DNA of 64,000 nucleotides from Rhizobium binae (GTDB taxonomy: Bacteria; Pseudomonadota; Alphaproteobacteria; Rhizobiales; Rhizobiaceae): contig NZ_CP071606.1 of assembly GCF_017357225.1 (NCBI RefSeq), positions 186,001 to 250,000 of the forward strand, read 5' to 3'. The notes beneath the pieces are model-generated. The model ran no database searches, was not told the origin of the DNA, and was given only the letters and a program-made list of their open reading frames with translations. Both the position numbers and the translations under genes were made by a program. Of this stretch, positions 19,556 to 28,765 are shown one piece after another (position 1 is the stretch's first letter; the number at the start of each line of letters is the position of its first letter).

Positions 19556-19801
19556 ATGCCGATCAACGTCAACAATCCGGAAGCGGACGCGCTGACGCGC
19601 AAGTTCGCCGAAATGGCCGGCGTCGGGATTACCGACGCCATCGTCATTGCCATGCGGGAGGCGATCGAGCGTCGCAATCGCGCGGAGACGCCATTACAGA
19701 CGGCGGCGCGGCTGCGGGAAAAGCATGGGGTCGCGATGAGCGAGGACATCCGCAAGCCTCTACCTCGTGAAGCATTCGATGAGATGTGGGATGACGCCTG
19801 A
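19556..19801 (+). CDS. vapB: Type II antitoxin, VapB family (Rv0623-like)
   Basis: 81 residues. An N-terminal DNA-binding/dimerisation half (MPINVNNPEADALTRKFAE) is followed by a charged C-terminal tail (LPREAFDEMWDDA) that would wrap the toxin. Belongs to the PSK-type transcription factor family. Stop and toxin start share a base (TGATG at 19799-19803), the usual coupling. Likely represses its own promoter through the repeats at 19513-19544. Confidence 0.82.
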   Translation: MPINVNNPEADALTRKFAEMAGVGITDAIVIAMREAIERRNRAETPLQTAARLREKHGVAMSEDIRKPLPREAFDEMWDDA

Positions 19802-20205
19802 TGTTCGTCGATGCCTGCGCGATCATCGCGCTTCTCTCTGATGAACCGGAAGCGGCGCGCGTCTCAGACGCTGTTGCTTCCGCCAGACATCCGTTCACAT
19901 CTCCGGTCGCAATTCTCGAAACCGTCCTCGGTCTTGCACGGCCCGACAAGTTCAACCTTCCGATTTCCGCGGTCGAAACGATCGTGATGGAATTCCTCGA
20001 AGCGCGGGAAATCGAGGTTCGCGATCTGCCGCCGGCAAACGAGACGACGCGGCTCGCCCTTGTCGCTGCGCACCGCTATCGCAGCGGCCGCCATGATCTG
20101 AACCTCGGCGATTGCCTGCATTATGCCTGCGCCAAATTCCATGGCGTGCCGATCCTCGCCACGGCGGACGAGTTCAGGTCGACCGACCTCGAAACCATTC
20201 CTTGA
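19801..20205 (+). CDS. vapC: PIN-domain ribonuclease toxin VapC
   Basis: 134 residues. PIN-domain acidic residues appear in order: MFVDACAII (Asp4), the Glu in SPVAILETVLGLA, the Asp in LGDCLHYACAK and the last in PILATADEF. The fold makes an Mg2+-dependent RNase that cleaves tRNA or rRNA; target unknown. Toxin partner of the adjacent VapB. Full length and apparently intact. Confidence 0.87.
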   Translation: MFVDACAIIALLSDEPEAARVSDAVASARHPFTSPVAILETVLGLARPDKFNLPISAVETIVMEFLEAREIEVRDLPPANETTRLALVAAHRYRSGRHDLNLGDCLHYACAKFHGVPILATADEFRSTDLETIP

Positions 20206-20408: not shown

Positions 20409-21038
20409 ATGAGCAGGAAGGACGAAGGCCAACGCGCCGACATTTATACGCGGATCACTGACAAGATCATGGAGGACCTGACAAATGGCGTTCGGCCCTG
20501 GATGAAGCCATGGAACGCGGTGAACACGAACGGCCGTATCACCCGACCGCTGCGCCACAACGGCCAGCCCTATTCCGGCATGAATGTGCTGTTGCTTTGG
20601 TCGGAGGGCATGGCGCGTGGCTATTCCTCACCGATGTGGATGACATTCAAGCAGGCGCTCGAATTGGGATCGGCCGTGCGCAAGGGCGAGACCGGCGCGA
20701 CGGTTGTCTTTGCGAGCCGCTTCACCAAATCCGAAACGGACGGTAACGGCGGCGAGATCGAGCGGGAAATCCCGTTCCTCAAGGCGTACACCGTTTTCAA
20801 CGTCGAGCAGATCGACGGCCTTCCCGATCATTATTTTCATCGCCTGGATCCCGTCCTCGACCCGGTCGAGCGCCTTGCGCATGTGGACCGCTTCTTCCGG
20901 AACACCGGCGCGCTTATCCGCCATGGCGGAAACCAGGCGTTCTTCGCGCCTGCCGCCGACCTCATCCAGATGCCGCCGTTTGAGAGCTTCAGGGACGCGG
21001 CGAGCTACTATGCGACGCTGAGCCATGAGGCAACGCAT
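20409..21038 (+). pseudogene. ardC: ArdC antirestriction protein, 5' part (gene split by mobile element)
   Basis: Residues 1-210 of an ArdC-like protein: the ssDNA-binding N-terminal domain DUF1738 (RADIYTRITDKIMEDL... PYSGMNVLLLWSE), then the start of the M78-like metallopeptidase part, ending at the zinc motif SHEATH. ATG at 20409 with GGAGG upstream. After CAT (His210, 21036-21038) the reading frame runs into the element's left end and stops at 21194 with unrelated residues. The 3' part lies at 28469-28765. Joined, they give a continuous 308-residue protein, HEATH followed by W T. ArdC family proteins protect incoming plasmid DNA from restriction. Confidence 0.9.
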
Positions 21039-21062
21039 TATGCCGTAAGCCGGATTATGCCG
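21032..21062. repeat. Left 31-bp inverted repeat of the recombinase-trio element
   Basis: Starts with AACGCAT (which belongs to ardC) and contains two direct copies of ATTATGCCG (21037-21045, 21054-21062). It matches 28411-28441 inverted with a single C/T difference. A third, inverted copy CGGCATAAT lies at 21113-21121, 50 bp further in. Confidence 0.88.
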
Positions 21063-21120
21063 CATGGCCGATATAAAGGGCGAAGGCTCCTCCAAGTGTC
21101 CATGCGGCGGTTCGGCATAA

Positions 21121-22114
21121 TCAGAGCGATTCTAGGAACGCGAGCAGTTCATCGTCGGGACGATACCGCCTCGAATGGGCTTCCGGCTTGGTGACTTGAG
21201 AGAGCGCCTTCTCCTTCAACCGCATGTCGGCGTGGATATAGATCTGGGTCGTTTCCACGGATTCGTGCCCGAGCCAAAGCGCGATCACGGATTGGTCGAC
21301 GCCATGATGGAGCAGTTCCATCGCGGTGCTATGCCGCAAGGTGTGCGGTGTAACCCGTTTGCTTGCGAGGCTCGGACATGCTCGGGATGCTGTGAGGCAA
21401 TGCTTGCGCACCAGGTGTTCCAACGCATCACGGCTGAGCCGCTCACCCCGGATCGAAGGGAATACGGGATTGTCGCTGTCACGGCGTTCCCCAATCCAAT
21501 CCTGGATCAACTTTGCCGTATCTCGACGAAGAGGTGTACTGCGTTCTTTTTCGCCCCTTGCCGACGCAACGGATGTGAGCGCCTGTCCCAAGGAACACGT
21601 CCGTGCACCGCAGACTGATCAGCTCGGATGCTCGCAATCCGGTCTGAAGTGCAAGCAACAGCAGGGCGTGATCACGCCGCCCCACCCACGTCGTTCGATC
21701 CGGCGCCGCCAGCAACGCCGCTATTTCTTCTGCGTCGAGGAACGTCACGCTTCGCTTCACGTATCGCTTGCTTGGCATCGAGAGAATGCGCTGGCAATGG
21801 AGCAGCTTGGTCGGATCGGTCATCGCAACGTATCGGAAGAATGAGCGGATGGCGGCAAGGCGCGCGTTGCGGGTCCGTGCCGTGTTACCGCGCGCCGTCT
21901 CGACGTGGGTCAGGAAGTCGGCGACAAGATCGACGTCGAGATCTTCGATCGTCAGCTTCGTGGGCGGCTTTCCACACCGTGAACCAGCGTAACGGATCAA
22001 CAACCGGAATGTATCCCGGTAGCCGGCGATGGTGTGGTGGCTTGCCTCCATCTGTGTGCAGAGCCGGTCAGTGAAGAAGCGTTGAATGAGTGCAGGGAAG
22101 CTAGTCGCCTTCAT
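21121..22114 (-). pseudogene. Tyrosine recombinase, third gene of the trio, +1 frameshift
   Basis: N-terminal SAM-like core-binding domain (HHTIAGYRDTFRLLIRYAG) and first catalytic Arg in LQTGLRASELISLR, in the frame that starts at 22114 (MKATSFPALIQ). The reading then shifts at a run of five T's (plus strand 21547-21551, five A's in the gene). GKGRK should continue ERSTPLRRDTAKLIQDW, which is in the next frame with HTLRHSTAMELL and WLGHESVETTQIYIH down to the stop at 21121. One extra A explains it. The gene overlaps the end of the second recombinase by 14 bp. Confidence 0.82.
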
Positions 22115-23048
22115 TGCTCCCCTCCGCCGCACTCGTAATCCGGGTGGAGGCCAATTCCAGCAATTCCGGGACCGCTTCCAGATACCAATAGGTATTGGCC
22201 GGGCTCTCGTGACCGAGCCAGGTCGTCAGTTTGATCATCTCACGCCCGACATCTTGGCCTGAACGATACCAGTTCAGCATCGTCCGAACCGCGAAGCTGT
22301 GGCGAAGGTCGTGGATGCGCGGCCCGCGTCCATGGCGCTGGTAATCCTGCCTCGGCCTCAAACCGATCTGCTGGCAGACCAGCGCGAAGTTATAGCGCGC
22401 GCCGCAATCGCCGAGACGGTGGCCCCTGCACGTGATAAACATGGCCTCTGACCTGCGCCCCAATAGCCGGTCCCGCTCACGCCCATAGCGTTCGAGCTGC
22501 TGAACGACCGTTAGATCCAAGGGCAACATTCGTTCCTTGCCGAGTTTCCCGAAGCGTACACGAAGGACACCGGTCTCAATATCAAGATCAGACTGGTCGA
22601 GACGCAGGGCTTCGTTAATCCGAAGCCCTGTCACGGCGATCAGGCCGAAGAGCGTCGAACAGGTTAACCCGCGCATGCCGTAAACCGATGGCAACGTCCG
22701 GGCTTGCTCGACAATCGCAAGGATTTCGGCGTCGCTGTAGATGTGTGGATGAACCCGTTGGACATGAGCGGGCACCAACCCTTGGGGCGGAACCTCGTGC
22801 CGCGGATCCATACCGTGTAGCCAAAGGGCAAATTGACGTGCCACCCGGAAGCGAGCGCCCCGTGTTCCGGCACTGGCGGCGGGGAGGCTCTCCAGCCAGC
22901 GCATGATCAATCTGGTATCGACATACTCCGCGCCATCCTTGTCGGCAAAGGCGGTGAAGCGACGCAATATGCGTTCGTCCGTACTCAGGTCGGCGCCCAG
23001 CCGTCTTCTGATGCTAAGGTAGCGGTGCTGTTCGGCAAGGAATCTCAT
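22101..23048 (-). CDS. Tyrosine recombinase, second gene of the trio, intact
   Basis: 315 residues from ATG at 23048, which overlaps the first recombinase stop (ATGA). Catalytic residues are in order: Arg143 (TGLRINEALRL), His246-x-x-Arg249 (RIHDLRHSFAVR), His280 (WLGHESPANT) and the nucleophile Tyr289 (TYWYLE). Members of such trios act together. This is the only undamaged one here, so mobility of the element today is doubtful unless helped by a relative elsewhere. Confidence 0.88.
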   Translation of the reverse strand: MRFLAEQHRYLSIRRRLGADLSTDERILRRFTAFADKDGAEYVDTRLIMRWLESLPAASAGTRGARFRVARQFALWLHGMDPRHEVPPQGLVPAHVQRVHPHIYSDAEILAIVEQARTLPSVYGMRGLTCSTLFGLIAVTGLRINEALRLDQSDLDIETGVLRVRFGKLGKERMLPLDLTVVQQLERYGRERDRLLGRRSEAMFITCRGHRLGDCGARYNFALVCQQIGLRPRQDYQRHGRGPRIHDLRHSFAVRTMLNWYRSGQDVGREMIKLTTWLGHESPANTYWYLEAVPELLELASTRITSAAEGSNEGD

Positions 23049-23981
23049 TGTGCTGCCTCCGCGATCGGCCAAGGCTGGGCGATGGAGCGCAATCCATCCG
23101 TGTCGAGCTTCGCATAGATCATCGTCGTTGCGCGCGATCGATGTCGCAACAGATCGCCGATCTCCTTCAGCGAAGCACCGGACCGCACCAGGTTCGTCGC
23201 AAGGCTGTGACGAAGGACATGCGATCCGACATAGGGTGCCGGCGGCTTCACCCCGGTTGCCGCGAACGCTTCCCGCAAGATCGAGTTGATGATCTGGCTA
23301 TCCTTGAACGGACGGTTCGGCGCCCGGTGGTAGATATCGCGGAAGTCTCGCGCCCCAGGGCTTGTGTACCCTGGGTACACAGAGTGAGAGGTTCGTGGTG
23401 GTGAGCCCCTGGGCGAACAGGTACTGGAAGAAGCCGCGCAGATGCGAGGATAATGTCTTATCCCGGTAGGGCGTCTTGCGAACAACAACATGCTCCATGA
23501 ACGCAACGACGTCGCGCGCGCTTAGCGCAGCAATATCGAGCATGCCGTCTCCGAAGCGATGAGCCAGAAAGCGGGCCGCGAACCCCTGCACGTGCTTGAC
23601 GGACCGTGGGCTGAGACCACGTTGCCGCAGGAGGTAAAACTCGAGTTCGCCGAGAAGCTCTTTGCGCTCGGCTTGAGCAGCAGTGAGCCGCGGGCGTGTC
23701 GCCACGCCGATCTCGAACAGGTGCTGGACGAACAGCCTCGCAAGGTTGGGAACCTTGATTTGGCCCTTGGGTGTCGTCGGTAGCCGCCGACCCAATTCGA
23801 GCGCAAGCTCTGTCGTCAAACCTGACGGCGCAACTCCCTCGTCTTCAAGCAGTTGGCCAAAGCGCCGCAGGAGATAACGATAATTCTCCACGGTGGCAGG
23901 CTTGTAGTTCTTGGCGGAGAGACTTTCCTCGAAAGAGGCGAGGTACGGCTCAAGGCAGGTAAACCGGTTGGATATGTCCAT
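23045..23981 (-). pseudogene. Tyrosine recombinase, first gene of the trio, internal deletion
   Basis: N-terminal core-binding domain from MDISNRFTCLEPYL (start 23981) to HKPWGARLPRYLPP. The reading then jumps frame to RAPNRPFKDSQIINSILREA and the C-terminal catalytic part GSHVLRHSLATNLVRSG, LLRHRSRATTMIYAKLD, stop at 23045. About 90 residues that normally lie between, including the first catalytic Arg, are missing near 23320-23340, and the frame changes at the junction. Non-functional as it stands. Confidence 0.82.
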
Positions 23982-24155
23982 TATTGTGCTCCGGGTTGGT
24001 GGAGCAACAATTTTCTTCAAAAACCTCTACATCAATTCGATACCGGCCTTTGCTGACCTGCTGGCAGACATGACGGGGTCGACGTTGATTACGTCAAGCC
24101 AGGAGTGCCGCAAGATGATGGTTTGACACATGTCGGCAGGGAAGAGATATCGGTG

Positions 24156-24206
24156 TTGACAGAGTAGGACAATTGACCTAATCACAGGACTAGGACAAAT
24201 GACCTA
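24156..24206 (+). promoter_or_regulatory. Sigma70-type promoter with twin TetR-type operators before the OYE gene
   Basis: TTGACA at 24156-24161 and TAATCA at 24179-24184, 17 bp apart, are near-consensus -35 and -10 boxes. A near-palindrome TAGGACAATTGACCTA fills the spacer and part of the -10 (24165-24180). A second copy TAGGACAAATGACCTA lies at 24191-24206, 26 bp on. Bound repressor would block RNA polymerase. The TetR gene at 26757 is the obvious candidate. Confidence 0.68.
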
Positions 24207-24224
24207 ATCCGTGGGGAAAGTTTC

Positions 24225-25415
24225 ATGATCGCCGATCTCTTCAATACCTTTCAGCTAAGTGATTTGCCGCTGTCCAATCGCATGGTGATGGCGCCGATGA
24301 CGCGCAACCGTGCCGATGGTGATGGCAATGTGACGCCCATTATGGTTTCGCACTACCAACAGCGAGCTTCTGCGGGTTTAATCATCGCCGAGTCCACTAC
24401 TGTTTCTCCTGAGGCTGTTGGCTACCCCTTCACTCCCGGCCTTTTCACCGACACACACGTGAGCAGTTGGCTGCGACTGACCAACGCCGTGCATTCCTCA
24501 GGAGGTCGTATTTTCGTGCAACTGCAACACTGCGGCCGGGTTTCCCATCCCAGCCTCCAGCCGGAAGAAGCTTCCCCGGTCGCGCCATCGCCGGTTCGTC
24601 CAGCCGGCAAGGCAGTCACATACGCCGGGATGCAGGATTTTGTGAGGCCGCGCGAACTGATGCTCGCGGAGATTCCAGATCTCGTCGCTCAGTTTCGACA
24701 TGCCGCGGCGTTGGCAAAGCGCGCGGGATTCGATGGGGTCGAGATTCACGGAGCGAACGGATACCTAATCGACCAGTTCCTGCGCGACGGCAGCAACCGG
24801 CGAGGTGACGCGTACGGCGGCATTGTCGGCAACCGTATGCGATTGCTGCACGAGATCCTCGACGCCGTCGGTGAAGTTTGGCCCGTAGGGAGAATTGGTG
24901 TGCGCCTGACACCAGAGAACAGCTTCAACGACATGGTCGATTCCGACCCGCAAGCTCATTTCGAATACATCATCCGGGAGCTTGGGGCTCGAGGGCTTGC
25001 ATACGTCCACGTGCTACAAGGAGACATGTCAACAAAATCGTCTGTGGTTGACTATCGCGCTCTTCGGGCATGTTTCGCTGGCACATATATCGCGAACAAC
25101 GGCTATGACCTAGCCCGCGCAAAGCAGGCAATCGCAAATGGCGAAGCCGATCTCGTGGCATTCGGCCTCCCCTTTCTCGCCAACCCTGATCTCGTACGGC
25201 GTTACCGGCAGGGATTGCCGTTGAACACGGCTGATCCAGCGACTTTCTATGGTGGGGGCGACGCCGGATATACTGATTATCCGTTCTTCACGGGCGAAGA
25301 GGAGCTATGCTGGAATTTGGGTGACGAGGTTGATCAAGCGGCGCTCTGTGGCTTCGATTCGATGACCTCGATTCCGTCCTGGAATTTGGCACCTGCGATG
25401 AGTTTCGGCAACTGA
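24225..25415 (+). CDS. Old yellow enzyme-family FMN oxidoreductase, C-terminus altered by IS256
   Basis: FMN-dependent NAD(P)H reductase of activated alkenes and electrophiles such as N-ethylmaleimide (NemA/OYE family). LPLSNRMVMAPMTRNRADGDG opens the barrel (first 20 only are diagnostic), followed by FVQLQHCGRVSHPS, EIHGANGYLIDQFL and RRGDAYGG. GGGDAGYTDYPFF marks the normal end. Pre-insertion, the gene ended GEEASAA-stop, with the stop at 26723-26725. The insertion at 25301/25302 replaces the last four residues by 37 encoded in the IS. The fold should survive, so the enzyme is probably still active. Cargo of the recombinase element. Confidence 0.87.
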   Translation: MIADLFNTFQLSDLPLSNRMVMAPMTRNRADGDGNVTPIMVSHYQQRASAGLIIAESTTVSPEAVGYPFTPGLFTDTHVSSWLRLTNAVHSSGGRIFVQLQHCGRVSHPSLQPEEASPVAPSPVRPAGKAVTYAGMQDFVRPRELMLAEIPDLVAQFRHAAALAKRAGFDGVEIHGANGYLIDQFLRDGSNRRGDAYGGIVGNRMRLLHEILDAVGEVWPVGRIGVRLTPENSFNDMVDSDPQAHFEYIIRELGARGLAYVHVLQGDMSTKSSVVDYRALRACFAGTYIANNGYDLARAKQAIANGEADLVAFGLPFLANPDLVRRYRQGLPLNTADPATFYGGGDAGYTDYPFFTGEEELCWNLGDEVDQAALCGFDSMTSIPSWNLAPAMSFGN

Positions 25416-26701
25416 TTTTGTCCTTTCAATCGTCGCCACGTCCTGGCGGCGGCGATGACCAGCTTGAAGACCATCAGCGTGGCGGTCTTCGAGGATAGCG
25501 CACCCCTGGTGCGCACCGTGCGGTGGCGAACGGTGGCAAAGACGCTTTCGATGGGATTGGATGTTCGCAGATGATCCCAGTGTTCGGCGGGGAAATCGTA
25601 GAACGCCAGCAACGCATTTTGATCTTTCGTCAGGCAGTCGACTGCCTTGGCATACTTCGCGTCATATTTTTCGACGAAGACGGCAATTGCCGTCTCGGCC
25701 GAGGCCCGGCTGGGAGCGAGATAGATTTCGCGCAGGACTGCCTTCATGCCGGCCTGCACCGATTTCGGCACCTTGTTGAGAATGTTGGCTGTCTTGTGCA
25801 CCCAGCATCGCTGGTGTTTGGTGTCGGGAAGGAGCTCATCGAGCGCCTTCCAGAAGCCGAGCGCGCCGTCGCCCACGGCAAGATCGGGCGCGATCTTAAG
25901 GCCACGCCGCTTGATGTCGACCAGCAGCTCGCGCCAGCTTTGCGCACTCTCGCGAATACCGGTCTGGAAGCCGACAAGTTCCTTCTTGCCCTCGGGCGTG
26001 GCGCCGATCAGGACCAGCATGCATTCGGCTTGATCTTCCATGCGCGCCTGCAGGTAGACCCCGTCCGCCCACACATAGACATAATGGCGCGCCGAAAGAT
26101 CGCGCTTTTGCCAACGATCATATTCGATGCCCCACTCCGCCGTCAGTCGCGAAATCACTGAGGGTGAAAGGTTCGGCGCGTCCTTGCCCAGTAGCGCCGA
26201 CAGGGCTTCCTGGAAATCCCCCGTCGAAACGCCGCGCAGGTAGAGAACGGGCAGAAGCGCATCCACACTGCGCGTCCGACGCGCCCATTTCGGCAGGATC
26301 GACGAGGAAAATCGGATCCGGTCAACCTCGCATTCCGCGCCGCGGTCCCGGATCTTCACCCGGCTGACCGGCACCGGCCCGATCCCCGTCTGGATGCTCC
26401 GTTCCGGGGCGTGACCATGCCGGACAATCCGATCACGACCATCGGCAAGCTTGAGATCCTTCATCGCGCCAAGAAATGCTTCGGCTTCCATCTCGATCGC
26501 CTGCGCTAGCAATTTGCGCGCCCCGCTGCGCAGCACATTCGTCAGGGGATCTTCAATTTCGTCGGGCTGACGAAGCCGAAAAATGTTGATAGTCTCGTTC
26601 ATGGCGTATCGCTCTCCTTGAGAGGGTCTGGCTGGCTTCAATCACCCGCCTCGATACGCCGCCATTCTCAAACCGTCATCACCCATTTTCCACCATAGCT
26701 C
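25302..26701 (-). mobile_element. IS256-family insertion sequence with 9-bp target duplication
   Basis: 1400 bp. The ends share imperfect inverted repeats starting GAGCTATG-TGGAA (25302 rightward, 26701 leftward). The target GGCGAAGAG is duplicated at 25293-25301 and 26702-26710, within the 8-9 bp expected for this family. Transposase is on the minus strand. Removing the element and one duplicate restores the OYE reading frame and stop. Confidence 0.92.
25334..26602 (-). CDS. IS256-family (mutator-type) transposase
   Basis: 422 residues from MNETINIFRLRQPDE (26602). DDE catalytic region: VWADGVYLQARMEDQ (first Asp), LAVGDGALGFWKAL (second Asp) and the late Glu in TSNPIESVFATVRHRT. A longer TTG start at 26641 is possible but the ATG has GGAGAGCGATACGCC-like spacing. 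No lesion seen. Confidence 0.92.
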   Translation of the reverse strand: MNETINIFRLRQPDEIEDPLTNVLRSGARKLLAQAIEMEAEAFLGAMKDLKLADGRDRIVRHGHAPERSIQTGIGPVPVSRVKIRDRGAECEVDRIRFSSSILPKWARRTRSVDALLPVLYLRGVSTGDFQEALSALLGKDAPNLSPSVISRLTAEWGIEYDRWQKRDLSARHYVYVWADGVYLQARMEDQAECMLVLIGATPEGKKELVGFQTGIRESAQSWRELLVDIKRRGLKIAPDLAVGDGALGFWKALDELLPDTKHQRCWVHKTANILNKVPKSVQAGMKAVLREIYLAPSRASAETAIAVFVEKYDAKYAKAVDCLTKDQNALLAFYDFPAEHWDHLRTSNPIESVFATVRHRTVRTRGALSSKTATLMVFKLVIAAARTWRRLKGQNQLPKLIAGAKFQDGIEVIESKPQSAA

Positions 26702-26756
26702 GGCGAAGAGGCCTCTGCTGCCTAAGGCGTCCGAAGACCAACAGGGAACTACTACG

Positions 26757-27380
26757 ATGGCCAATCGGGCTACACGTGAGGAGATCGTCGGCGTAGCGGA
26801 CGATCTGTTCTATCGCAGAGGATTTGATCACACGTCTTTTGCAGACATTGCCGAGCTGGTGAAGATTTCTCGCGGCAACTTCTATCACCATTTCAAAACG
26901 AAGGACGACATTCTCGAAGCGGTGATTCAAAAACGCCTCGCTGATCGCAATGCTATGCTGGAGCGATGGGAGATAGAGGGCCAGACACCTGTAGAGCGGA
27001 TCAGCAGCTTCATCGATATCCTGATTGTGAATGGGGATAAGATCAAACTGTATGGATGCCCGATCGGGACCTTAACGAGTGAGCTTGCGAAGCTGAACCA
27101 TCCAGCGCAGCCAGACGCAGGCAGATTGTTCATGCTGTTTAGGACGTGGCTTCGCCGTCAGTTCGTAACACTCGGTCGAGAAGCAGATGCGGATGTGCTT
27201 GCCATGCATCTTCTCTCCCGGAGCCAGGGCGCGGCGACCCTTTTTAATGCATTCCAGGATCAAGACTTCGTTCAGCGCGAGGTCGATCAGATGAAGGATT
27301 GGTTGAAGGTTATCGCTGCCGAGGCGTCAACACCGACCGGGGATAAGCTGCCTCGAACAAACCCGCTCGACGCGTCATAG
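26757..27380 (+). CDS. TetR/AcrR-family repressor
   Basis: 207 residues. N-terminal helix-turn-helix at about residues 9-55 (GFDHTSFADIAELVKISRGN, then FYHHFKTKDDIL). The ligand domain has one single Cys in the whole protein, Cys101 in YGCPIGTLTSEL. Before the IS256 insertion it lay 31 bp after the OYE stop, so it was cotranscribed with the reductase. It probably represses the promoter at 24156-24206 and responds to an electrophile or reductase substrate, by analogy with NemR. Confidence 0.87.
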   Translation: MANRATREEIVGVADDLFYRRGFDHTSFADIAELVKISRGNFYHHFKTKDDILEAVIQKRLADRNAMLERWEIEGQTPVERISSFIDILIVNGDKIKLYGCPIGTLTSELAKLNHPAQPDAGRLFMLFRTWLRRQFVTLGREADADVLAMHLLSRSQGAATLFNAFQDQDFVQREVDQMKDWLKVIAAEASTPTGDKLPRTNPLDAS

Positions 27381-27431
27381 CGCGGCGAGCGCCTTTCTCA
27401 TTCCGTCACAGCTCAAGAAACGGGACAGTTC

Positions 27432-27719
27432 ATGTTTATCGTATTTCTCAGGTTTTCCGACAACAAGCCGCAGGCCTCTCAATTTCTTGAGGGACACAAT
27501 ACCTGGATCAAAAGAGGTTTCGACAGCGGAACTTTTCTTCTCGCAGGCACCCTCCAGCCGAACGCGGGCGGGACACTCCTCGCCCACAATATTGATCGGA
27601 AAAGCCTTGAGGCGTTGGTTCAGGAGGATCCGTTCGTAGCAGAGCGTGTGGTGAGCGCCGAGATCCACGAAGTCTCGCCAGGCCGCGTTGATGAACGGCT
27701 TATGTTCCTGAAAGGGTAA
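27432..27719 (+). CDS. YciI family protein
   Basis: 95 residues, YCII-related ferredoxin-like fold (MFIVFLRFSDNKPQASQFLEGH; a conserved His at residue 23; DPFVAERVV near the end). Members are small dimeric proteins; a few act in chloro-aromatic degradation, most are unassigned. It lies between the regulator and the glycosylase gene, 3 bp before the latter, in one operon. Confidence 0.8.
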   Translation: MFIVFLRFSDNKPQASQFLEGHNTWIKRGFDSGTFLLAGTLQPNAGGTLLAHNIDRKSLEALVQEDPFVAERVVSAEIHEVSPGRVDERLMFLKG

Positions 27720-27722
27720 TCG

Positions 27723-28331
27723 ATGAGCGGAACTGTCCTAGGTCATGACGGACGGCTGCGTTGCCGCTGGTGCGCGGCCGCACCAGAGTTTCTTCATTAC
27801 CATGACGCCGAATGGGGCTTTCCGGTCTCCGACGATTTTCGCCTTTTCGAAAAACTCTGCCTCGAAAGCTTTCAGTCGGGCTTGAGCTGGCGAACTATCC
27901 TTGCCAAGCGCGAGAACTTCAGGTCTGCCTTCTGTGCTTTCGATTTCAACCGTATCGCGCAATTCGATGGTTCCGACGTCGAGCGACTCTTGAAGGACGA
28001 GGGCATCGTCCGCCATCGCGGCAAAATCAATGCTGTCATCAACAACGCGAAACGAGCGCAAGAGCTTGTCAAGGCCGAGGGTTCTCTCGCCACCTACATC
28101 TGGCGCTTCGAGCCGCGACAGGAAGATTGCGCCGAACCGCAGACTGCATCGACTTCCGCAGCTTCAATTTCGCTATCGAAAGATCTGAAAAGGCGCGGTT
28201 GGTCCTTCGTAGGGCCAACCACCGTCTATGCCTTCATGCAGGCGATGGGGCTCATCAATGACCACGCCTCAGGATGCGAGATCAGGGCTTCGGTCGAACA
28301 AGCGAGAGCGGAGTTCCATCGCCCAGCGTAG
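27723..28331 (+). CDS. DNA-3-methyladenine glycosylase I (Tag-like)
   Basis: 202 residues. Removes 3-methyladenine from alkylated DNA. The Tag zinc site is visible as RCRWCAAAPEFLHYHDAEWG near the N-terminus (Cys and His) and NDHASGCE near the C-terminus (His and Cys). FQSGLSWRTIL and WSFVGPTTVYAFMQAMG complete the HhH-type fold. Last gene of the cargo operon. The pairing with an electrophile reductase fits a response to alkylating or electrophilic chemicals (inference). Confidence 0.87.
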   Translation: MSGTVLGHDGRLRCRWCAAAPEFLHYHDAEWGFPVSDDFRLFEKLCLESFQSGLSWRTILAKRENFRSAFCAFDFNRIAQFDGSDVERLLKDEGIVRHRGKINAVINNAKRAQELVKAEGSLATYIWRFEPRQEDCAEPQTASTSAASISLSKDLKRRGWSFVGPTTVYAFMQAMGLINDHASGCEIRASVEQARAEFHRPA

Positions 28332-28410
28332 CCGACGGCAAACCGGTAGCAATTATGCCGACCATCAAGGCGGAGTTGGTGTTTAATTCCAATGCCGTTC
28401 TCATGAGATT

Positions 28411-28441
28411 CGGCATAATCCAGCTTACGGCATAATGCGTT
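28411..28441. repeat. Right 31-bp inverted repeat of the recombinase-trio element
   Basis: Inverted match of 21032-21062 (30 of 31). Holds CGGCATAAT at 28411-28419 and 28428-28436. The inner opposite copy ATTATGCCG is at 28352-28360, again exactly 50 bp away. Confidence 0.88.
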
Positions 28442-28468
28442 TTATGCCGATATCGGCATAAAACGCAT
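28428..28468. repeat. Recombinase core site and 34-bp perfect palindrome at the right end
   Basis: 28428-28449 is a full core-type site: arms CGGCATAA and TTATGCCG around TGCGTT. 28435-28468 is a perfect 34-bp palindrome centred between 28451 and 28452. The last arm CGGCATAA (28454-28461) and AACGCA (28462-28467) abut the resumed ardC sequence. Confidence 0.8.
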
Positions 28469-28765
28469 TGGACGGCGCCAGCCAGCCGCGTCGGCCGGGA
28501 TCTTTCCCGGTATTCGAGAGATAGAAGTGAGCGCGCCCGCGAGGAACTCATTGCCGAGCTTGGCAGCTGCTTCCTCTGCGCCGATCTCGGCATTGCGCCG
28601 GAACTCGAGCCGAGGCCGGATCATGCGTCGTACCTTCAGTCCTGGCTCACCGTTCTTTCGGGCGACAAGCGAGCCATCTTCCAAGCCGCGGCGCATGCCC
28701 AACGTGCCGTTGGCTATCTTCACGATCTTCAGCCGGCGGAGAGCCAAGACCGGCAGGCGGCTTGA
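28469..28765 (+). pseudogene. ardC: ArdC antirestriction protein, 3' part
   Basis: Continues ardC in frame: WTAPASRVGRDLSRYSRD, then REELIAELGSCFLCADLGIA, a hallmark of ArdC C-termini, and LQSWLTVLSGDKRAIFQAAA, stop at 28763-28765. 98 residues that complete the 210 encoded at 20409-21038. It lacks its own start and is not expected to be translated. Confidence 0.88.

Follow-up and report, generated by a model that had tools for sequence, protein, structure and literature searches.

The first description of recombinase-in-trio (RIT) elements dates from 2009 (cited in PMC10214605). Terminal repeats of 34 bp (PMC10214605) or 28–29 bp (PMC3414803) have been given for them, RitA is defined by two sequential core-binding domains (PMC8138268), and insertions into radC and into an IS66 tnpA were reported earlier (PMC2864759). 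A 2012 paper called the need for three recombinases hard to understand (PMC3414803), and the available text of a 2023 comparison gives target specificity (in its Table 1), empty site and movement of RIT elements as not tested (PMC10214605). Here we describe an insert that splits the gene ardC in a 64,000-nt stretch of DNA, referred to as the window. Judged against the published descriptions, this insert is assigned as a RIT element with cargo, since it has three distinct recombinases, terminal repeats of 34 bp and, at one end, a palindrome, as described for RITs (PMC3414803, PMC10214605, PMC8138268). As its recurrence shows, the HExxH|W codon run of ardC is the attachment site of a RIT clade, in plasmid after plasmid. 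RIT elements are already known; the codon-exact targeting of ardC by one clade may be new.

Insertions at the HExxH codons of ardC

The window lies on contig C3 of an eight-contig genome of 7.06 Mb; this contig carries a RepC gene and most likely represents a Rhizobium plasmid of the repABC type. The 5′ part of ardC (20409–21038, plus strand; open reading frame, alignment and domain match) comprises residues 1–210 and ends S-H-E-A-T-H. The 3′ part (28469–28765, plus strand; open reading frame and alignment) resumes with W-T at W211 and extends to the stop codon at 28763–28765. The joined halves encode 308 residues, residue 210 being the last before the break (HEATH|W), and the insert between them measures 7430 bp (28468 minus 21038). 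The split right after HEATH and the 308 residues had been noted in the original prediction, whose ends (21038, 28469) and length we recovered; the element of about 7.4 kb reported there is a composite of a RIT, cargo and an insertion sequence (IS) of the IS256 family. An unchanged frame had also been claimed there, and the halves do join in frame, but 7430 bp is not divisible by three, so that the ardC frame is restored on paper only. Because direct copies of AACGCAT are present at both ends (21032–21038 and 28462–28468), the crossover point is uncertain within 7 bp. The ArdcN domain (PF08401, E 3e-42) and the start of the zincin-like MPTase-PolyVal domain (PF18818) fall within the left part. 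An uninterrupted ardC with 78% protein identity to the window gene is located on contig C5 of the same genome. A third ardC (C6:167136–167764) contains no large insert; its frame is disrupted near residue 201, some five codons ahead of HExxH.

A set of 56 loci (numbered with L) was fetched from the genome collection by RitB alone, blind to ardC. RitB identity was 46–92% in 54 of these loci and 40% in L061 and L063. A flank could be seen in 41 of the 54, and according to the alignments 39 of these 41 show ardC cut at residue 210, in 27 cases at two ends. The idea that the catalytic motif of ardC offers a dependable target is borne out by these 39 of 41 informative loci, and the search for other ardC genes cut at the same codon, proposed along with it, revealed recurrence across many genera. 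Plasmid loci picked by similarity to the window gave the same picture, this sample being biased. Most ardC genes are empty: ArdC matches at E ≤ 1e-30 were obtained in 72 of 100 genomes of the genus, and among the matches listed a split at this codon occurs only in the window and in R. cauense. The element is found in both orientations: counted over all loci, the ardC 5′ half faces ritA at 27 ends and ritC at 22 (one more end is without RitB), and the RitB-fetched loci alone give 22 and 15 ends, respectively.

A RitB tree of 86 rows was calculated (IQ-TREE quick mode, SH-aLRT only, midpoint root). It leaves out the near-duplicates L088, L086, L011 and L073, furthermore L140 and L089, loci in which the RitB match was too short (L076, L062, L064, L099) and loci in which it was absent (L068, L080–L082). 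All ardC rows are placed within one branch with an SH-aLRT value of 100, whose 63 rows consist of 48 ardC loci, 13 loci with unseen flanks and the two loci L040 and L056. Outside this branch none of 24 loci (23 of them in the tree) had an ArdC match in the DNA examined, for many of them 1.5 kb on each side of RitB. Targets outside that could be read include IS66 tnpB (L101), IS66 tnpC (L099), tyrosine-recombinase genes (L106; L092, under the Pfam cut-off; L100, near the end) and a DUF932 gene (L084, match under the cut-off). With ardC confined to one RitB branch and other RITs located elsewhere, target choice follows the recombinase clade, and the insertions published for radC and IS66 tnpA (PMC2864759) fit this. 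The RITs of L092, L100, L101, L099, L106 and L084 lie in or beside mobile-element genes, and each clade may have its own conserved-codon target.

It could be argued that the position in ardC came about by chance, or by plasmids being good landing places, and that the shared codon reflects one old inherited insertion. Some near-copies are indeed probably at the same place, namely L010 and L086 in Sinorhizobium medicae and L011, L013 and L073 in Agrobacterium vitis. On the other hand, identical bodies reside in clearly different ardC genes of one strain: the 5′ flanks of L065 and L067 are 67% identical, and for those of L029 and L030 no similarity was found. Bodies that are at least 99.8% identical occur in five genera (L048–L051 and L053; the flanking ardC is visible only in L050, L051 and L053 and not in L048 and L049), and both body orientations exist, which likewise disagrees with an old insertion. 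Chance insertion and a single old inherited insertion were therefore both rejected on the grounds of recurrence and of identical bodies in different ardC genes; the probability left to them is negligible. The RIT clade has crossed genera recently.

Junction spacers and proposed mode of movement

Starting from the ardC 5′ side, the junction reads CAYGAR-NN, a spacer n6 (NNNNCA), TTATGCCG (or TAATGCCG), the rest of the terminal repeat and the body. The left arm is essentially CAYGAR (46 ends). The body is followed by the terminal repeat ending in CGGCATAA (or CGGCATTA), an inverted spacer i6 (TGNNNN), a palindrome P of 20 bp (TTATGCCG-4-CGGCATAA), a spacer o6 (NNNNCA) and YTGG of the ardC 3′ half, which is replaced by GCC or another codon in some ardC types. 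Of the three 6-bp spacers in each insert, n6 lies at the ardC 5′ side, and i6 and o6 stand on either side of P. A spacer is made up of the third base of codon 208, codon 209 and CA of His210. At 44 of 44 P-type ardC ends, P adjoins the ardC 3′ half running away from the element.

In the window n6 (AACGCA; 21032–21037, plus strand) lies at the ardC side of the left junction, as judged by junction comparison, and the left terminal inverted repeat (TTATGCCGTAAGCCGGATTATGCCG...) identified by repeat analysis covers 21038–21065 on the plus strand. The right terminal inverted repeat (28408–28435, minus strand) was found in the same way and ends with CGGCATAA at 28428–28435. Next to it, junction comparison places the inner spacer i6 at 28436–28441 (AACGCA on the minus strand), within a second core site CGGCATAA-6-TTATGCCG, and o6 (AACGCA), the footprint spacer of the right junction, at 28462–28467 on the plus strand. 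Between i6 and o6 lies P (TTATGCCGATATCGGCATAA; 28442–28461, repeat analysis), which is common to both core sites. The terminal arms of 34 nt (21032–21065 and 28408–28441) are 94% complementary. Since the window spacers flanking P are equal, a perfect palindrome of 36 bp is formed (28434–28469).

For comparison of the spacers with native sequences, 73 uninterrupted ardC stretches served as reference, and a sequence was counted as native only if one match spans the site. The near-duplicates left out of the tree were also dropped from the counts over 40 spacers and 29 loci given below and from the left-arm and stop counts. Among nine loci with at least 85% 5′ flank identity, n6 equals the nearest native 6-mer in five and specifies the same residue 209 in eight; o6 is the native 6-mer in one of ten loci, with the same residue in four of ten. 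The 18 native 6-mers, which come nearly all from the Rhizobium sample, include i6 in 20 of 40 cases (4.1 expected from base composition), and for native 6-mers and the n6 of other loci taken together the count of i6 is 33 of 40 (8.0 expected at most). The corresponding values for o6 are 13 of 40 (4.2 expected) and, with n6 of other loci added, 26 of 40 (7.7 expected). The three spacers were compared with each other in 29 loci that have one junction of each kind, excluding those in which both ardC ends are 5′ or both are 3′. Here n6 and o6 are equal in nine loci (1.7 expected by shuffling), i6 and o6 in six (1.1) and n6 and i6 in four (1.7, not significant). According to these sequence comparisons n6 tends to be native ardC sequence, o6 looks like the footprint of an earlier site, and i6 looks like a further memory. 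A simple target duplication of 6 or 7 bp was rejected as the full account, with n6 equal to o6 in only nine of 29 loci and i6 differing again. Different i6 accompany near-identical bodies in L050/L051/L053, L019/L024 (target of L019 not visible), L029/L030/L059, L065/L067 and L180/L181. A hairpin-like CCGCTCCGGCGTAGCGGAGCGGGTTAGTCCA stands beside the RIT core site in L071 (9689) and L033 (14100–14160), where it replaces the usual sequence; this is perhaps another element at the same site.

Three pairs of 100% identical bodies were detected, each in different ardC genes of one genome: L065/L067 (6277 bp), L029/L030 (4542 bp) and L045/L046 (3488 bp). In R. anhuiense T24, L065 has n6 TTGCCA, i6 GACGCA and o6 TTCACA, and L067, in the opposite orientation, has n6 GACGCA, i6 TTGCCA and o6 GACGCA; in both, n6 agrees with the native 6-mer found next to a 100% identical 5′ flank. 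A metagenome-assembled genome of Novosphingobium carries L030 (n6 GGTTCA, i6 GTCGCA, o6 GTCGCA) and, again in the opposite orientation, L029 (n6 GTCGCA, i6 GGTTCA, o6 GTCGCA). On one contig of Mesobacterium pallidum the ardC halves are swapped, L046 reading 5′-RIT-5′ and L045 3′-RIT-3′, as reciprocal products of inversion between the copies. Once this exchange is undone, an inferred step, the spacers of L045/L046 are n6 GACCCA, i6 GGCCCA and o6 CGCCCA versus n6 GGCCCA, i6 GACCCA and o6 GGCCCA, with opposite orientations. All three pairs (L045/L046 after this correction) obey one rule: the new copy has the old i6 as its n6 and o6 and the old n6 as its i6, and the body is flipped. Further near-identical pairs within a genome were not detected in the 30 genomes of the fetched loci, in which draft assemblies may collapse copies.

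We consider it probable, at roughly 0.8, that the window insert is a cargo-carrying member of a RIT clade which targets the ardC HExxH|W codons and moves via a circle with two opposed core sites around P. The junction would represent a short tyrosine-recombinase core, in which a 6-bp spacer with CA at its end separates an 8-bp arm from the arm that ardC supplies. In the circle, the presumed mobile form, the terminal repeats would be separated by i6-P-s6 (s6 being a further 6-bp spacer), giving two identical, opposed core sites that share P. Either of them could recombine with ardC; if both are usable, the body can enter both ways while P always adjoins the ardC 3′ half. The native spacer would stay on the left as n6, the spacer of the used site would become the right footprint o6, and that of the unused site would become i6. 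At the next hop the circle would copy n6 of the donor. The flipped pairs would then result from one hop of a circle with i6 and the donor n6 on either side of P, the inner site having been chosen because its spacer matches the target. A 6-bp rule with the native sequence on the left and a footprint on the right has been measured for SE (strand-biased circularizing integrative elements; PMC10214605), and the spacer pattern found here matches it. Besides the circle and its two usable sites, we infer the roles of the three recombinases and a copy-like movement, the latter because both copies sit in the same assembly. We lean slightly towards the further idea that each of the opposed circle sites holds a 6-bp spacer from an earlier ardC and that the one matching the next ardC is used, a two-slot memory which would aid jumps between catalytic-codon variants.

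The orientations and swapped spacers might instead have arisen after insertion, if the body was inverted by recombination between the n6 and i6 sites, with no need for a two-site circle. Inversion also predicts an n6/i6 exchange together with a flip, and L009, in which n6 is unlike the nearest native 6-mer and i6 is equal to it, could be such a case. In L065 and L067, however, n6 is the native 6-mer of a 100% identical flank, so that no net inversion has taken place since insertion, and yet the two bodies are flipped relative to each other. Moreover, inversion alone does not explain why the new o6 equals the old i6, and we regard this explanation as unlikely.

Even less credit is given to the view that P is not part of the element but an older small insert in ardC acting as a landing pad, which we hold to be very improbable. 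It finds some backing in L082 (5700–6280), where two different ardC 3′ halves meet head to head at P and the region examined contains no RIT match; this arrangement looks like a product of recombination between two insertions. The exact 20-mer of P was met in only two of 385 genomes of the class, the window's own and one whose 2.6-kb locus has weak tyrosine-recombinase matches, and no ardC with P alone in normal order was present in the eight P-bearing plasmid regions fetched (60 matches listed of 76 plasmid records).

Several observations weigh against the proposed combination of ardC targeting and a two-site circle. No such circle was seen. In 13 of the 54 fetched loci no flank is visible, as the contig ends within or at the border of the element or no end was located (L014, L016, L019, L021, L025, L028, L031, L034, L036, L043, L047, L048, L049). 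Integration of related elements at unrelated sites had been named beforehand as a sign of mere chance; within the clade ardC is hit in 39 of 41 loci and another gene in two, L040 and L056, and more distant RITs reside in other genes. L040 is inserted in a traE-like gene (Pfam TraE), with only the other side of the site visible; the gene hit by L056 has neither an ArdC nor a Pfam match, and the site is the HETIH-coding ...CATGAGACGATCCAT. Extra or odd ends were noticed in L011, L013, L045 and L071, with an assembly gap (Ns) by one end of L045; L073 is without P, and L079 and L082 have ardC 3′ halves on both sides. As to the spacers, neither n6 nor o6 of L066 equals the 6-mer of a 98–99% identical native ardC, n6 of L009, L033 and L072 is a synonymous variant of the nearest native one, and the three window spacers are equal and hence indistinguishable from the window alone. 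Finally, the Tardibacter pair L180/L181 with 99.97% identical bodies has kept its orientation; o6 of L181 equals n6 of L180, and i6 misfits. Equality of o6 and n6 with kept orientation is as expected if the other site was used, so that this pair fits in part.

The case of L056 also bears on what is recognised. A short DNA motif (CAYGAR-N6-CA with a YTGG-like arm) rather than ardC may be the target, any HExxH gene then being a possible site and ardC the commonest one on plasmids. Insertion of L056 in a non-ArdC gene at HETIH codons and the conserved left arm agree with this possibility. It remains doubtful in our view, as only one such case was found among 41 and L040 shows the other side only.

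The window copy, its cargo and ArdC

The window insert has three neighbouring Phage_integrase genes on one strand. In the closest relative, L066 on a plasmid of Rhizobium sp. CB3060, their equivalents are intact (RitC 330, RitB 312 and RitA 406 amino acids) and slightly overlap, by 4 bp. All three window genes, on the minus strand, were identified as tyrosine-recombinase genes by open reading frames, domain matches and comparison with L066. ritC (21121–22132) is broken near residue 187 (open pieces 21121–21591 and 21479–22132), ritB (22101–23072) is open and its product shows 95.5% identity to RitB of L066, and ritA (23045–24020) lacks residues 220–310 of the intact relative and changes frame. 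The RitA piece has two matches to SAM-like N-terminal domains (residues 26–59 and 128–204), both over the curated cut-off. A pattern search in L066 revealed HxLRH in RitA, RitB and RitC and TGLR in RitB and RitC; the pattern did not pick up the RitA arginine or the tyrosines. With RitA and RitC broken, the window copy is decayed, and its movement without help is unlikely.

The cargo starts with a gene for an alkene reductase or old yellow enzyme (N-ethylmaleimide-reductase-like; 24225–25415, plus strand; domain match and comparison with L066). Its 3′ end is interrupted and changed by the IS256-family element (25302–26701, minus strand; open reading frame and domain match), which contains a transposase reading frame (25334–26641, minus strand) and has a 9-bp flanking repeat GGCGAAGAG. 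A 100% identical copy of this IS is present on contig C7, and it arrived later than the RIT. The remaining cargo genes, all on the plus strand and assigned by domain match, encode a TetR-family regulator (26757–27380), a YciI-like small protein (27432–27719, match under the family cut-off) and DNA-3-methyladenine glycosylase I (Tag; 27723–28331, match somewhat under the family cut-off). Measured between the ends found, the bodies are 3.1 to more than 10 kb long. The alkene-reductase group includes the window and L065–L068 (L067 through sequence identity with L065); other annotated cargo comprises a SulP transporter (L071), chromate-resistance genes (L075) and a two-component system (L085). The chromate-resistance RIT of L075 (4004–9926) and that of L016 are 99.98% identical across 5923 bp and occur in Novosphingobium and Pseudochelatococcus. 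Upstream of ardC in the window, two small adjacent genes (19556–20205) are, judged by eye, a candidate toxin-antitoxin pair of the VapBC type.

The insert spares the single-stranded DNA-binding domain of ArdC and the HExxH codons; the rest of the metalloprotease domain is cut off. It had been assumed that the insertion disables antirestriction, for which we find no support: the binding domain is whole, and the active-site mutant E229A of R388 ArdC remains functional in conjugation to Pseudomonas putida (PMC7213743). With the protease active site dispensable for this effect in R388 (PMC7213743), a loss of antirestriction cannot be assumed. A simple stop count, with 37 of 46 stop-free 5′ halves and 34 of 41 stop-free 3′ halves, gave no sign of purifying selection on truncated ArdC or of selective upkeep of the 5′ fragment.

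Comparison with known elements

No mention of ardC as a RIT target was found in the literature searched, which left out two main RIT papers of 2009 and 2013; the words ardC and antirestriction are absent from the main texts of PMC3414803, PMC10214605 and PMC5385486. With a defined ardC target, a defined junction, recent hops of identical bodies and the prediction of a circle, the target choice of RITs and their need for three recombinases become directly testable. The clade represents a transposon riding on a gene met across plasmids, with metabolic and metal-resistance cargo.

Inteins and homing introns also occupy the most conserved active-site codons, but splice out and thereby spare the gene product. 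Unlike these, the window RIT element shows no sign of splicing out. Members of the Tn554 family have their target in radC, and their ends differ from RIT ends. They share tyrosine recombinases, target specificity and a 6-bp footprint with the elements described here (PMC10214605). However, their TnpC is grouped with Srap/GinD and not with the recombinases (PMC10214605), whereas all three window genes match Phage_integrase. GInts resemble the clade in three integrase-type genes, site-specific insertion and joint variants able to influence target specificity, but have four essential genes and often reside at the end of ssb, their target genes being expected not to be fully inactivated (PMC5385486, PMC10214605).

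SE likewise have a 6-bp spacer with the native sequence kept at one end and the donor footprint at the other, and leave no empty site (PMC10214605). The clade follows this spacer rule (native left, footprint right) as a behavioural tendency, with L066 as a misfit, and this does not make it a member. SE carry the four genes IntA, Tfp, IntB and Srap instead of RitABC, and no double core site with a palindrome is described for them in the available text of PMC10214605. The core genes intA, tfp, intB and srap are not what the window contains, which has three integrase genes and cargo of other families.

The closest agreement is with RIT elements. Common features are adjacent ritA-ritB-ritC genes, terminal inverted repeats, an end palindrome and intragenic insertion (radC, transposase genes), and RIT-type ends are present both in the window, as 34-nt arms and the 36-bp palindrome at the right end, and in the locus set, as the P module at 44 ardC ends. 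Bare members of the clade measure 3.1–3.5 kb compared to about 3.5 kb reported. The window insert exceeds this typical, though not exclusive, size with 7.4 kb because of its cargo and IS. In contrast to the RITs described so far, the clade uses ardC in a codon-exact manner and carries cargo of up to several kb, and in its palindrome two core sites can be recognised, the 6-bp spacers of which would change at each hop.

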